Positions 32,262 through 37,324 of a stretch of DNA of 64,000 bases are shown here, in pieces; the first letter of the stretch is position 1; each line of letters begins with the position of its first letter. The notes under the pieces are model-generated. The model was not told the DNA's origin. It did no database searches and saw only the letters and a list, made by a program, of their open reading frames with translations. Where the stretch lies: positions 1,071,387-1,135,386 of the forward strand of contig NZ_JH601133.1 in assembly GCF_000245795.1 (NCBI RefSeq). Direction: 5' to 3'. The stretch is from Facklamia languida CCUG 37842. Its GTDB lineage: Bacteria; Bacillota; Bacilli; Lactobacillales; Aerococcaceae. Position numbers and translations under genes: made by a program.

Positions 32262-33059
32262 TCAAAAATTTGGATAGCTTTTAGCTAAATCTTGAATTTC
32301 TTCTGCTGTCAGGTCTGCTTGATCAGTGTAATGGACCTGTTTGATGGATTGGATGATTTGCTTGTCTTGTTCGACTTGATAGGAAATCAGCTGGTGAGAG
32401 GTCTTGTCAAATTCAAAGGTCCAAATGCCATGATTATAAGGGGATAGGTCTTCAGGCATCTCCCCCTTGATCTGATAGGTCTGTTCTGCTTCGCTTAGGG
32501 TGGGATCCTTTAAGTCCGGTATACGAATTAAGAGGTCCATGAAGATTCCGCGAGGTTCGATCAAGTCCGCCATTTCTCCTTTTTGTTTATAGGGATCCAT
32601 TTCGGGTGCAGACATTTGGACATATTGACCGTCCAAATAGTAATTAAATTCAGTATTTCCCATTTGTAAGATTTCATAGAATAATCCCTTGGTTTTGTCA
32701 AACTTACCCGAGATAGCGGCCGATTCAGCTCCTTCAAAATGGGTCATCTCATAAGCATAATCCATTTGATCCTTATTAAAAGTCATTAAAGCATCAAAAA
32801 CGACTTGTCGAATGGTGGGGTCCATCTCTTTGGCTCGATCCTCATCCATACTCAAGACATAGGACAAGTAGGTCTGATTTTGTAAATAGGGTTCTTCTTT
32901 TGATTGGTTGGCAGAAATTTGTTGGACCGTTTCAATGGTCTCTTGCTGTGTTTGTTGGTCAACCTGGACATGGTAAAAGGCATAGCCTTCGTAAGCTATT
33001 AGTGGGATAGCGACTACCAGACTGGTGGTCAAGAGATAGCGTAAGGTTCTTTTTTTCAT
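32262..33059 (-). CDS. Membrane-anchored extracytoplasmic protein
   Basis: About 265 aa with one N-terminal hydrophobic segment (about residues 8-27), no clear cleavage site and no lipobox Cys, so likely a signal anchor. The outer domain (YYEIL-like strands, NTEFNYYLDGQYVQMSAPEM) suggests a LolA/LppX-like or DUF6612-like beta fold; this is a weak impression. ATG 33059 is supported by AAGGAGTG. It lies 32 bases after the preceding membrane gene and should be co-transcribed with it. Confidence 0.7.
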   Translation of the reverse strand: MKKRTLRYLLTTSLVVAIPLIAYEGYAFYHVQVDQQTQQETIETVQQISANQSKEEPYLQNQTYLSYVLSMDEDRAKEMDPTIRQVVFDALMTFNKDQMDYAYEMTHFEGAESAAISGKFDKTKGLFYEILQMGNTEFNYYLDGQYVQMSAPEMDPYKQKGEMADLIEPRGIFMDLLIRIPDLKDPTLSEAEQTYQIKGEMPEDLSPYNHGIWTFEFDKTSHQLISYQVEQDKQIIQSIKQVHYTDQADLTAEEIQDLAKSYPNF

Positions 33060-33091
33060 TACAGTCACTCCTTATTGTGAATATAACTAAA

Positions 33092-33775
33092 CTAATTTGC
33101 TTTCATTTTTAAGCGGGGCTGATACCAATATGCACTGTAAGCTAATGCAGTGATCAAGACCATCATTAGGAATCTGACCAGTAAAGTCCTAGCGGTCATC
33201 TGTGTGGAGGGATCCGTCATGATCCATTTAAAGCCAACTTGACTATAAAAACTATGCACAATGATGACTAAATTTACTACAAGTCCCAATATGCTATAAC
33301 CGAGGCAGTGAATGGTGGTCTGTAAGATCAACATTGACCAGAGCGTGATTACCAAATGGATGAAGAGGGAAAGAATAAAGGCAAGAGGCACTCCTTTATC
33401 TGCTTGAAAGAATAGGGCAAACAGAATCGATATGAAGACATAGGAGGCGCTATAGATTGCCATCCAAACTAAGCTTATGACAAACAAATGCCTAGGATGA
33501 CGAATCCGCACAAATTCAAAGGGACTTTCTTGGACTAAGACGTGTCCAAAGAAATTAAACGGGACCAATAAAGGGAAGATATTGAAGCTAAACCAATGCA
33601 TATTATTGGTCAGGGCGTTTCGATCGTGGATAGAAAAATAAGCCCAACCCCCTCCCTCGCCAATCATAAAGGAGAAGGTACTTAATAAGTAAATGACGAA
33701 CAAGACTCCAATAAAATAACGGAGTTGGAAGAGGCGATAGCGATTCATGCTTAAATAGTGGAGTGATTCTTTCAT
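33092..33775 (-). CDS. Polytopic membrane protein, ABC-2-permease-like (subunit C)
   Basis: 227 aa with about six membrane helices and short loops. FGHVLVQESPFEFVRIRHPRH after the second helix resembles the cytoplasmic elbow of ABC-2 type permeases. With two other polytopic proteins and one ATPase in the cluster, it may be part of an ABC export complex or an immunity protein. A purine-rich GGAAAGATCAT site precedes the ATG. No family name is certain. Confidence 0.65.
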   Translation of the reverse strand: MKESLHYLSMNRYRLFQLRYFIGVLFVIYLLSTFSFMIGEGGGWAYFSIHDRNALTNNMHWFSFNIFPLLVPFNFFGHVLVQESPFEFVRIRHPRHLFVISLVWMAIYSASYVFISILFALFFQADKGVPLAFILSLFIHLVITLWSMLILQTTIHCLGYSILGLVVNLVIIVHSFYSQVGFKWIMTDPSTQMTARTLLVRFLMMVLITALAYSAYWYQPRLKMKAN

Positions 33776-33815: not shown

Positions 33816-34493
33816 TTAAAGGATCGATTGTTGTTGGTGCATCAGGTACCGGTCCAGTTGGTAAGCAGGATATAAAATAAAGCCTATCTTGAGTAAGAGA
33901 TACACTAAGCCCCTCCAAGTCAGGGGATCACTTTCTTCAATGAAGATCAAAAAAACCGGGTTGAACATGAAGATTAATAATAAGGGGCTGAGGCCTAAAC
34001 TAATCAAGAGGGCTAATAAACGATGGTTCATTAAGGATTCCATTAAATGACATAAGACACCATAGAGGGTCAAGATGAGCAACTGTTGAACGGATGAATA
34101 TAAGATGTCCAGTAAGATAAATTCCTGGTCTGTCCAGATTAAATCCAATATCACGGATACCTCACTCAACAGAAACATCAAACCTAAACTCATTAGGAGG
34201 ATAATCCATTTATACCGACATTGTCGTTTAATTGAGAGGCGGACTTGTTCTAAATTTGTATAATAAGCCCTAAAAAGATAGACCAAGATTAATAAGGTCG
34301 GGACAGCAATCCATCTTACAAAATTGCTATCCATGGGCTGATTAATAATAATTTGATAAGGGATGGGTTTGAAGGGGGAATTTTTCAGACTGAAATAACC
34401 CCCAACAAGTAGCAAGAAAGCAACAGAGGTATAGAAAATAAGCCCTCTTTGCCAACAGATTCGGATCTTATCGTAGCAAATAACCCTAGTCAT
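33816..34493 (-). CDS. Polytopic membrane protein (subunit B)
   Basis: About 225 aa with about six membrane helices and basic cytoplasmic loops (KIRICWQRG, SIKRQCRYKW). I chose ATG 34493 since GGGGAG lies 7 bases upstream and it overlaps the previous stop by 8 bases (ATGACTAG), a sign of coupled translation. Context suggests a permease or assembly partner of the nearby ATPase. No conserved motif allows a name. Confidence 0.65.
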   Translation of the reverse strand: MTRVICYDKIRICWQRGLIFYTSVAFLLLVGGYFSLKNSPFKPIPYQIIINQPMDSNFVRWIAVPTLLILVYLFRAYYTNLEQVRLSIKRQCRYKWIILLMSLGLMFLLSEVSVILDLIWTDQEFILLDILYSSVQQLLILTLYGVLCHLMESLMNHRLLALLISLGLSPLLLIFMFNPVFLIFIEESDPLTWRGLVYLLLKIGFILYPAYQLDRYLMHQQQSIL

Positions 34494-34980
34494 GATTCCA
34501 CTCCCCACGGAAGCCAACATGTTGAAGGTCTTCCATCATAAAGTGACTAAAGGACAAAATCCATTCATTCTTACCAGGTTTAAAGGCCTCCTTAGGAAAG
34601 GCGAAGTATAAACGATAATTGTCGCCATCGACTTCACTCGCTGAGAAGATCGGCAAGGTCCGGTATTGCCGGTTAAATATGAGGCCAAAGCCCATATGCT
34701 TTTCTTTTGTATTAGAGAGAGGGCCCTCTAGCTCTACTTGGAAGATGAAATCTTCACCTGGGTTGAGAAAGCTAGCGTATTCTTCTTGGAACTGTTCTGT
34801 TTCCTGCTCATCTAATTGCCTAATTGAGTGCAGCTGATAGGGGTCCCCTTGCAGGGTAATGATCTCATCTGCTGCATATAAACGAGCGGTCACACCGGAT
34901 TGTGTTCGATTCACATAAATGATCCGAGTTAGGACGAGGGCAAGAAGTAGAATCGGCAAGATGATTTTATATTTTTTCAT
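34486..34980 (-). CDS. Membrane-anchored protein of unknown function
   Basis: 164 aa: a single N-terminal hydrophobic helix (residues 5-22) and a hydrophilic, probably beta-rich domain outside the membrane. It overlaps both neighbours (4 bases with the ATPase gene, 8 with the next), so it is firmly part of the operon. It might be an accessory or immunity component of the transporter. No known family recognised. Confidence 0.7.
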   Translation of the reverse strand: MKKYKIILPILLLALVLTRIIYVNRTQSGVTARLYAADEIITLQGDPYQLHSIRQLDEQETEQFQEEYASFLNPGEDFIFQVELEGPLSNTKEKHMGFGLIFNRQYRTLPIFSASEVDGDNYRLYFAFPKEAFKPGKNEWILSFSHFMMEDLQHVGFRGEWNHD

Positions 34981-35618
34981 CGTTGACCTCCTACAATCCG
35001 CCCATCCGCAATCTCGTAGATATGGTCGGAGACTGCTTGAATCAGTTGATCATCATGGCTAGCTATTAAGAAGCCTTTACCGAGGGATTTAATCTTTTGG
35101 ACGAAACCAATAAAGACCTTGACGGAATCCTTATCCAGACCGTTGGTTGGTTCATCAAGCAAGATCAAGGCTTGGTCTTCCATGAGGGCTTGAACGATGG
35201 CCAGTTTTTGCCGCATGCCAAGGGAATAGTTGGATACTTTGATATCTTTGTGTTGGTAGAGGTCTAAGTCTTTTAACAACGATAGGACCTGGTTTTCTTG
35301 GTAATTATCTTTTATAGATGCAAGGTATTTCAGATTCTCTAAGCCAGTAAAATGAGGAATGAAATCAGGATTCTCAATAATAACCCCGACATCAATGGGC
35401 AAGGGTTGGTTAAAGACAACGGGGTGGTCTTTTAGATAAACTTGGCCACTATTCAACCGCATGCTGGCGATAATCGTTCTTAATAACATTGTCTTGCCTG
35501 ATCCATTATGGCCAACCAAGCCCACCACTTCACCTTCGTTCACTACCAGGTCAACTTGGTCTAGGACTTGCTTTGAACCAAAAGACTTGGAGACTTTATT
35601 AACTTCTAATAAAACCAT
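34977..35618 (-). CDS. ABC transporter ATP-binding protein
   Basis: About 213 aa, a compact ABC-2 type ATPase. Walker A is GHNGSGKTML, the Q-loop region IIENPDFIP, the signature is the variant YSLGMRQKL, Walker B is LILLDEPTNGLD and the switch His is ASHD. ATG 35618 is preferred because AAGGAGTG lies just upstream; GTG 35627 would sit in that site. It lies 15 bases after the first permease and would energise export in this cluster. The Y-S-L-G-M signature is common in peptide and bacteriocin exporters. Confidence 0.9.
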   Translation of the reverse strand: MVLLEVNKVSKSFGSKQVLDQVDLVVNEGEVVGLVGHNGSGKTMLLRTIIASMRLNSGQVYLKDHPVVFNQPLPIDVGVIIENPDFIPHFTGLENLKYLASIKDNYQENQVLSLLKDLDLYQHKDIKVSNYSLGMRQKLAIVQALMEDQALILLDEPTNGLDKDSVKVFIGFVQKIKSLGKGFLIASHDDQLIQAVSDHIYEIADGRIVGGQR

Positions 35619-35633
35619 CTTCTTCACTCCTTC

Positions 35634-36440
35634 CTAGTCGACACCTAAGTTGCGATCGGATACCTTCCAATGAAATAAGATCCCAATCACTAGCACGATG
35701 ACGATCCAATAGGCAAGTGTCTGCATCCATAGAGGGCCATCCAGCATCGATAAATGAGAGAGGAGCATCATCGGAACTAAGTTCAAGTAATAAATCCCAA
35801 ACACGCCAAAGACAAGGGGGGTTAAAAAAATAACAGCAAAAGCAAAGAAATATTCAAAATACTTATAAGATATGAAGTATGAGACGACCAGGCCTAAACA
35901 GGTTAAAATCCCCGAAATCAGAAAGATCCACAGGCTGAGAAGTAACCATAAGGTGAAAGGATGGAGGGAATACAAGGTATACATCCAACCTGGCGAAAGA
36001 CTATTCAGCTGAGTGACAATCGGATCGGGTAAGGTCATGGGGTGTAGCATGAAGAATAGCACCGAACTGACTAGATAGGGACTGACCCCGGCTATCCCAC
36101 CACCGATAAAGGCCGTCAATAATTGTTGATAATAGTAAGACTTCCGACCAAACCGGACGGATTGGTTGAGAATGATCGACCGCCTTACATCTTCTCGGTA
36201 AAGGCCAGCTCCAAAGAAGGCGACCATAATCGGTAAGGTGATCGCATAGACTTCAGAGCCATAACCCGTATGGTCAAAGCAGAGTAACCGCACAAAGGCA
36301 GACGGTTCAAATAAATAATTAGGTCGATTATAGGTGTAAAATTGAATGGCACTGATCCCCAAAATATAAGTTAAGAGAATAAGACCATTTCGCTGCAGGA
36401 ACATGCGCTTCATATTTTCCTTAAATAAAGCCACGGACAT
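35634..36440 (-). CDS. ABC-2-like permease (subunit A)
   Basis: 268 aa with about six membrane helices. The elbow region GLYREDVRRSIILNQSVRFGRKSYYYQQ, between helices two and three, is the pattern of ABC-2 type bacteriocin or peptide transport permeases. GAGGAGGAGTCG precedes its ATG. It is the first membrane gene after the secreted DUF2712-like protein and is directly followed by the ATPase gene, so the two probably form the transporter core. Confidence 0.75.
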   Translation of the reverse strand: MSVALFKENMKRMFLQRNGLILLTYILGISAIQFYTYNRPNYLFEPSAFVRLLCFDHTGYGSEVYAITLPIMVAFFGAGLYREDVRRSIILNQSVRFGRKSYYYQQLLTAFIGGGIAGVSPYLVSSVLFFMLHPMTLPDPIVTQLNSLSPGWMYTLYSLHPFTLWLLLSLWIFLISGILTCLGLVVSYFISYKYFEYFFAFAVIFLTPLVFGVFGIYYLNLVPMMLLSHLSMLDGPLWMQTLAYWIVIVLVIGILFHWKVSDRNLGVD

Positions 36441-36524
36441 CGACTCCTCCTCAATAGGAAGGAGGCCATACGCAGATAAAATTAAAAATTAGAACGCACA
36501 GCCTCCTCGTTGACATTTTTATTA

Positions 36525-36926
36525 TTAAATACTATCTGGACTCCATACACCAGATACAGTTGATTTATTTACCCAATAGGGATTTTTGACACCTAATTTA
36601 CAGGAGGTATATCCCATCTCATTAATATATTGAGAAATATATGAGGATTGACCTGCTCCAATATCAACGTAAGCAGAATTCACATTTTGACCGTTGGGCC
36701 CTACCATGAAGCAAGTAACAGTACTAATATTATGAAGACTAAGTACTTTCACGTATGATGAGGTTGCATCCGTCTTGGGTCTTGAGTACGTATATTGAGG
36801 TTTAATTCCTCCTAAAGCAAAATGGAAACCAGTATCGCTATGATTATTAGCAGATACCAAACTAGTTGCACCTAAACCTAGGAGAGAAATAATAATTAAC
36901 AAAGATTTAATGAGTTTATTTTTCAA
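36525..36926 (-). CDS. Small secreted protein, DUF2712-like
   Basis: 133 aa. A cleavable signal peptide (core LIIISLLGLGATSL, cut after SLVSA at about 26) leaves a mature protein of about 107 residues with two Cys (TVTCFM, YTSCKL) that could form a disulfide outside the cell. DTGFHFALGG, YTYSRPKT and the ending VSGVWSPDS resemble DUF2712 proteins, which often precede ABC exporter genes and are suspected bacteriocin-like factors. It appears to start with TTG, with GGAAG 8 bases upstream. It is the first gene of the leftward cluster and is driven by the promoter with the C10 spacer. Confidence 0.7.
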   Translation of the reverse strand: MKNKLIKSLLIIISLLGLGATSLVSANNHSDTGFHFALGGIKPQYTYSRPKTDATSSYVKVLSLHNISTVTCFMVGPNGQNVNSAYVDIGAGQSSYISQYINEMGYTSCKLGVKNPYWVNKSTVSGVWSPDSI

Positions 36927-37030
36927 TATGTCTCTTCCTTTCTAATATGCTGCAACGGCCAACGGATCCTATTTATTTGTTTAATTATCTCTCCTTTCTT
37001 TACTAGAACAGCCATCTTGTTTACGCTTCC

Positions 37031-37059
37031 ATTATACTAAATACTGGGGGGGGGGACAA
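37031..37059 (-). promoter_or_regulatory. Promoter with a homopolymer spacer (candidate phase-variable switch)
   Basis: On the minus strand TTGTCC (37059-37054) and a perfect TATAAT (37036-37031) are 17 bp apart. Ten consecutive C (G on the + strand, 37046-37055) make up the last two bases of the -35 and eight of the 17 spacer bases. Gain or loss of one C would change spacing to 18 or 16 and alter promoter strength. The predicted start is about 100 bases before the DUF2712-like gene. Confidence 0.75.
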
Positions 37060-37324
37060 TAGTTTTTTGAAAATTGGCCGCCAAATCACAAATTTTGGCC
37101 GCGAAAGGAATTTTTATAGGAAGAACGGATAATTTATCGTCAGTTTGGTTGAAAGTTAGTGACTTTTATCTACTATCAGCTGATAGAGGAATAAGATGTC
37201 TTAAAGGTCGACATGGTTTCCTTCTTGACGCATTGAGTGAATCGCATTAGCATAGTAACAATGAATGAAGTGGTATTCATTACTTGAAAGTCCTGGTTTT
37301 GATCAGAAGTTGAGGAGGGTTAGA

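Follow-up and report, generated by a model that had tools for sequence, protein, structure and literature searches.

A C10 tract within an apparently LytTR-dependent promoter of a DUF2712/ABC-exporter gene cluster in Facklamia languida, a plausible site of phase variation

The stretch of DNA analysed here (64,000 nucleotides of the Facklamia languida CCUG 37842 genome, hereafter the window) carries on its minus strand a gene for a DUF2712 protein, followed by genes for an ABC exporter and for several membrane proteins, and preceded by a promoter with a run of ten C. The features of the locus, in the order of transcription, are the following:

37095..37106, minus strand: distal half of the predicted LytTR-type site, TTTCGCGGCCAA, a direct repeat with 21 bp from start to start
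37074..37085, minus strand: promoter-proximal half of the predicted LytTR-type site, TTTGGCGGCCAA, with 37 bp from GGCCAA to the -10 hexamer
37054..37059, minus strand: -35-like hexamer TTGTCC (the F. hominis orthologue has TTGTCA in this position)
37046..37055, minus strand: C10 tract, overlapping the last bases of the -35 hexamer and reaching into the spacer; no other C/G run in the genome exceeds 7
37031..37036, minus strand: -10 hexamer TATAAT (TAAGAT in the F. hominis orthologue)
36923..37015, minus strand: possible leader reading frame of 30 codons, with a stop that overlaps the start of DUF2712 (TTGA)
36525..36926, minus strand: DUF2712 protein (PF10916), 133 aa, signal-peptide-like N-terminus, TTG start, 53% identical to F. 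hominis
36460..36507, minus strand: RNA hairpin with a 14-bp stem and no T-run, between the DUF2712 and permease genes
35634..36440, minus strand: membrane protein, probable ABC-2 permease, 268 aa, 75% identical to F. hominis locus B
34977..35627, minus strand: ABC transporter ATP-binding protein (PF00005, 8e-29)
34486..34980, minus strand: exported or membrane-anchored protein, 164 aa, 74% identical to F. hominis locus B
33816..34520, minus strand: membrane protein, 234 aa, 68% identical to F. hominis locus B, with a paralogue in the same genome (L012)
33092..33775, minus strand: membrane protein, 227 aa, 63% identical to F. hominis locus B
32262..33068, minus strand: membrane-anchored protein, 268 aa, 70% identical to F. 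hominis locus B, with a paralogue in the same genome (L012)

In regard to the genes, a first-pass annotation of this DNA had named a DUF2712-like protein as the next product downstream of the promoter, and the minus-strand reading frame at 36926-36525 indeed belongs to that family, scoring 36.8 bits with PF10916 (gathering cut-off 22). Its predicted structure (mean pLDDT 52.5) was too poor for use, protein searches of genome contigs and plasmids returned only F. hominis or no match, and in the literature searched DUF2712 was the subject of no paper, and nothing relevant to phase variation in Facklamia was found either. The ATPase has as its best NCBIfam model the lantibiotic-protection ABC ATPase, with a score below the cut-off of that model. 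It is a fair guess that the operon produces a secreted antagonistic or signalling protein together with its exporter or immunity functions.

Related clusters are found next to LytTR genes. In the sister genome of F. hominis CCUG 36813 (G001), a LytTR gene of locus A is followed by a DUF2712 gene and an ABC cluster, while at locus B (L125:7431-12413) a LytTR gene is followed by the orthologous ABC cluster, with 63-86% protein identity and without DUF2712. In another genus of the family (G041), a LytTR-domain response regulator, a DUF2712-type gene with a score below the cut-off, and permease/ATPase genes stand together. Likewise, another family of the Lactobacillales includes several genomes with DUF2712-like genes 5′ of those for related permeases.

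The promoter proposed by the first-pass annotation, TTGTCC (37059-37054) followed by a 17-bp spacer and TATAAT (37036-37031), was read again on the minus strand as CTATTGTCCCCCCCCCCAGTATTTAGTATAAT, and the ten consecutive C that had been described across the -35/spacer boundary lie at 37055-37046, the first two of them being the last two bases of TTGTCC. Such -35/-10 consensus matches numbered 16 in 7.6 kb, against 18 in shuffled sequences, so the match by itself proves nothing, even for one of the two best-scoring of the 16 (10/12). The credibility of this promoter comes from the comparison with F. hominis and with relatives in the same genome. The core of the orthologous F. hominis promoter is TTGTCA-17-TAAGAT, and its flanks are similar, with CTATTGTC upstream and AAGCG downstream. 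While the position of the proposed promoter is thus conserved in F. hominis, its description as a bare -35/-10 pair of the Neisseria por type is incomplete, as direct repeats of LytTR type lie upstream and had been overlooked.

These repeats form a paired site of two copies of GCGGCCAA with a 21-bp period, at 37106-37074 of the minus strand. According to PMC6193735 and PMC2766830, LytTR sites consist of two 9-bp repeats with about 12 bp between them, usually placed about 10 bp 5′ of the -35 element, and the geometry of the window site is close to this. Its 12-nt repeats begin at 37074 and 37095, a spacing of 21 that agrees with direct repeats of about 9 bp lying about 12 bp apart. Measured against an expected position of about 4-11 bp 5′ of the -35 element, the site lies 14 bp from TTGTCC when counted from the final base of its 12-nt repeat (37074), and about 11 bp when GGCCAATTT is taken as the unit.

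Furthermore, a DNA search of the same genome with the upstream region revealed a second stretch with 85% identity (E 2e-5, L012), which is a pair of CGGCCAA repeats with the same 21-bp period. It is located at the 3′ end of a LytTR-type gene, ahead of genes whose products are paralogous to two of the window-cluster proteins. F. hominis holds a GGCCAA pair at both of its loci: with a 21-bp period between the LytTR gene and the operon at locus B, and with a 32-bp period just downstream of the LytTR gene at locus A. The site is therefore linked to regulator genes at L012 and at both F. hominis loci, and by this linkage and its geometry the GCGGCCAA pair is apparently a LytTR-family site. A search of the DUF2712-type cluster in G041, which is more distant, did not reveal the 21-bp repeat. 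A third occurrence of GGCCAA-N37-TATAAT in the F. languida genome (1362158) was taken as a chance match, because it falls in a coding frame of the opposite strand and has no paired repeat. Taken together, a promoter consisting of a LytTR-type site and TTGTCC-17-TATAAT is likely.

The distance between the predicted site and the -10 hexamer proved to be similar in all promoters carrying the pair. From the promoter-proximal GGCCAA to the -10 hexamer, the gap measures 37 bp in three promoters (the window, the second F. languida promoter and F. hominis locus A) and 38 bp in the fourth (F. hominis locus B). The -10 hexamer of locus B had been placed at GATAAG, with a gap of 37 bp, and was replaced by TAAGAT, with a gap of 38, on alignment to the window promoter. 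As this gap is one base longer, the distance is not absolutely fixed. The bases in the interval are unconserved, with only 8-13 of 37 in common among the three TATAAT promoters; ungapped comparisons with F. hominis locus B gave 11-13 of 37, but with the register off by one base. Given that the spacer is 17 bp in both orthologues and the gap agrees within one base, the C10 tract stands in for an unconserved spacer with the distances little changed. In other words, the gaps of 37, 37, 37 and 38 bp and the 17-bp spacer suggest that the tract fills the activator-to-promoter spacer at an ON-like length.

In its length the tract has no equal in the genome. In the 1.72 Mb single-contig genome of F. 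languida, C/G runs of exactly 7 occur 38 times, those of 8 or 9 are absent, and this C10 is the single longer one. Markov models trained on the window predict 5.5-13.9 C/G runs of at least 8 and 0.2-0.7 runs of at least 10 per genome by chance, so a C10 somewhere in the genome is not improbable. This C10 stands out because the runs of 8 and 9 are missing and because of its location in a promoter, where it forms an unusually long tract between the promoter elements, as in slipped-strand promoters. This position, at which a change in its length would alter the promoter spacing, supports the earlier interpretation. On the other hand, in a comparison of one genome per species (F. languida and F. 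hominis), neither the F. hominis orthologue of the promoter nor the two paralogous promoters had the C tract; conservation of the tract in relatives is a usual, not a defining, trait of slipped-strand phase-variable promoters. F. hominis has C9 and C11 tracts (L003:1501 and 2056), both within phage tail-like coding genes, which excludes them as promoter counterparts; they are candidate frame-switching tracts of a prophage.

The absence of the tract from the orthologue and the paralogues, the unconserved sequence between the site and the -10 hexamer, and the agreement of a single C10 per genome with the Markov expectation would all suit a neutral tract, expanded in an unconstrained region of a LytTR-dependent promoter, that varies little or has little effect on expression. 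We regard such neutrality as unlikely, since no other C/G run of at least 8 occurs anywhere in the genome, the C10 touches the -35 hexamer in the length-sensitive part of the promoter, and the total length equals that of the relatives. The same agreement in length bears on another explanation, according to which the true tract is longer or shorter and the number ten carries no biological signal. Homopolymers are error-prone and a single assembly is the source, so the tract length could be a sequencing error. However, with ten C the tract gives a spacer of 17 bp and a gap of 37 bp, the same as in the relatives, which would be unexpected from an erroneous length, and an artefact thus appears very improbable.

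With a little better than even confidence, we favour the explanation in which the DUF2712/ABC-exporter operon has a LytTR-activated promoter and slippage in the C10 tract changes its transcription in part of the cells. A LytTR-family regulator would bind the two GCGGCCAA repeats at 37106-37074 of the minus strand and activate RNA polymerase at TTGTCC-17-TATAAT. Slipped-strand mispairing that adds or removes one C could then alter the -35/-10 spacing and, because the direct repeats lie upstream of the tract, also the distance and the phase between activator and promoter, so that transcription would go up or down in a fraction of the cells. If these distances matter, ten C would be an ON-compatible length and one C more or less would disturb both of them. 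The sequenced clone would accordingly be ON-compatible, as both of its distances match those of the other promoters carrying the paired site. Against this explanation count the tract missing from the orthologue and the paralogues, the 0.2-0.7 such runs given by chance, and a regulator that may be decaying, as discussed below. Phase variation by the C10 tract is thus plausible and unproven, and the mechanism proposed in the first-pass annotation is partly supported, in the refined form of a promoter that apparently depends on a LytTR regulator and has poly-C in its spacer.

Several known systems resemble this arrangement. In the Neisseria genes porA, opc and fetA, as cited in PMC2791445, a homopolymer likewise occupies the -35/-10 spacer and altered sigma-factor binding is described, whereas the Facklamia promoter adds an activator site upstream. 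Due to this site, the activator-dependent fim promoters of Bordetella are a closer analogue. In Bordetella pertussis fim2 and fim3, a poly-C tract is located in the promoter of an activator-dependent gene (PMC10172299, PMC1891110), a one-base change shifts the geometry between activator and polymerase, and the loss of one C from the fim3 promoter tract abolished expression (PMC10172299); the Facklamia C10 is comparable in position. Bordetella differs in its phylum, its activator (BvgA, not LytTR), its product (fimbriae) and its longer tracts (13-18 in fim3), and the effect of length was tested there, while in Facklamia it is predicted. As for the repeats, the consulted portions of PMC6193735 and PMC2766830 describe for Streptococcus mutans HdrR/BrsR and streptococcal SilA short direct repeats in pairs, with a period close to 21 bp, immediately 5′ of the -35 element, and note that LytTR promoters of Firmicutes often drive bacteriocin and related genes. 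Unlike for the Facklamia promoter, no C tract is reported for those promoters in these portions, and the repeat GCGGCCAA also differs from theirs.

If the C10 tract varies, it would represent poly-C control of a LytTR-dependent promoter, which is the principle of Bordetella fim in another regulator family, and mixed ON/OFF populations would be predicted for the secreted DUF2712 protein. This could be of wider relevance, as the LytTR family often governs bacteriocins and quorum-sensing outputs in Gram-positive bacteria.

The candidate regulator in the genome of F. languida itself is the LytTR gene of L012, which scores 15.9 bits against a Pfam cut-off of 22.6. No second homologue of the F. hominis regulator was found in this genome. 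A ribosome site, AAAGGGGG, is followed by a TTG and then by an alternating AT tract of 15 nt (L012:821-835, G000:1480446-1480460), the only one of that length in the genome, which starts 8 nt behind AAAGGGGG. The TTG, which together with the tract spans L012:818-835 (G000:C1:1480443-1480460), is the probable start of the gene. It matches in position the ATG with which the F. hominis regulators start, yet is out of frame with the long reading frame. None of the codons ATG, GTG and TTG occurs in the latter 5′ of position 907 of L012, and the stretch between the TTG and this position is an open frame whose translation gives a weak alignment to the N-termini of the F. hominis proteins. In a further difference from the published LytTR systems, the regulators here have a weak N-terminal domain that gave no match to Pfam receiver models. 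A degenerate paralogue of the window cluster (locus B of this genome, L013:6533-8604) retains the LytTR gene and two membrane-protein paralogues, the ATPase gene and the other cluster genes being missing. The score below the cut-off, the start out of frame and the cluster lacking its ATPase gene suggest that the regulator may be decaying.

It is also possible that the circuit has two tiers, in which the AT tract would set translation of the regulator ON or OFF and the C10 tract would tune the DUF2712/ABC-exporter promoter. At the present AT length the gene would be out of frame, so that the sequenced clone would have its regulator OFF and would not express the operon before the tract changes. 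This scenario includes the promoter mechanism of the favoured explanation, and we hold it only tentatively, as rather doubtful. It draws on the position of the AT tract directly 3′ of the TTG equivalent to the F. hominis start, on a long frame that has no earlier start and is still open where the F. hominis N-terminus aligns, and on the apparent lack of a second homologue of the F. hominis regulator in this genome. Likewise, in Bordetella a slippage tract in bvgS, part of the regulatory system, is paired with a fim tract (PMC1891110), and the LytTR gene here may carry one of the same kind. However, the locus looks partly decayed, with its weak LytTR score and missing ATPase gene, so that an ordinary mutation may account for the shift in frame. 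In addition, the alignment of the N-termini is weak, only shared sites link the regulator to its target, AT tracts occur commonly 5′ of genes, and the argument is post hoc. The GCGGCCAA site common to both loci provides a testable regulator-target pair, and both tracts are readable by deep sequencing.

Downstream of the promoter, two smaller features could influence expression or point to the history of the operon. The hairpin between the DUF2712 and permease genes is stable (-26.2 kcal/mol for a 95-nt stretch, z -2.7) and would thus allow unequal expression of the two; lacking a T-run, it is possibly an attenuator or a processing site. The possible leader reading frame resembles the N-terminus and ribosome site of the F. 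hominis locus B permease, as if DUF2712 had been inserted there.
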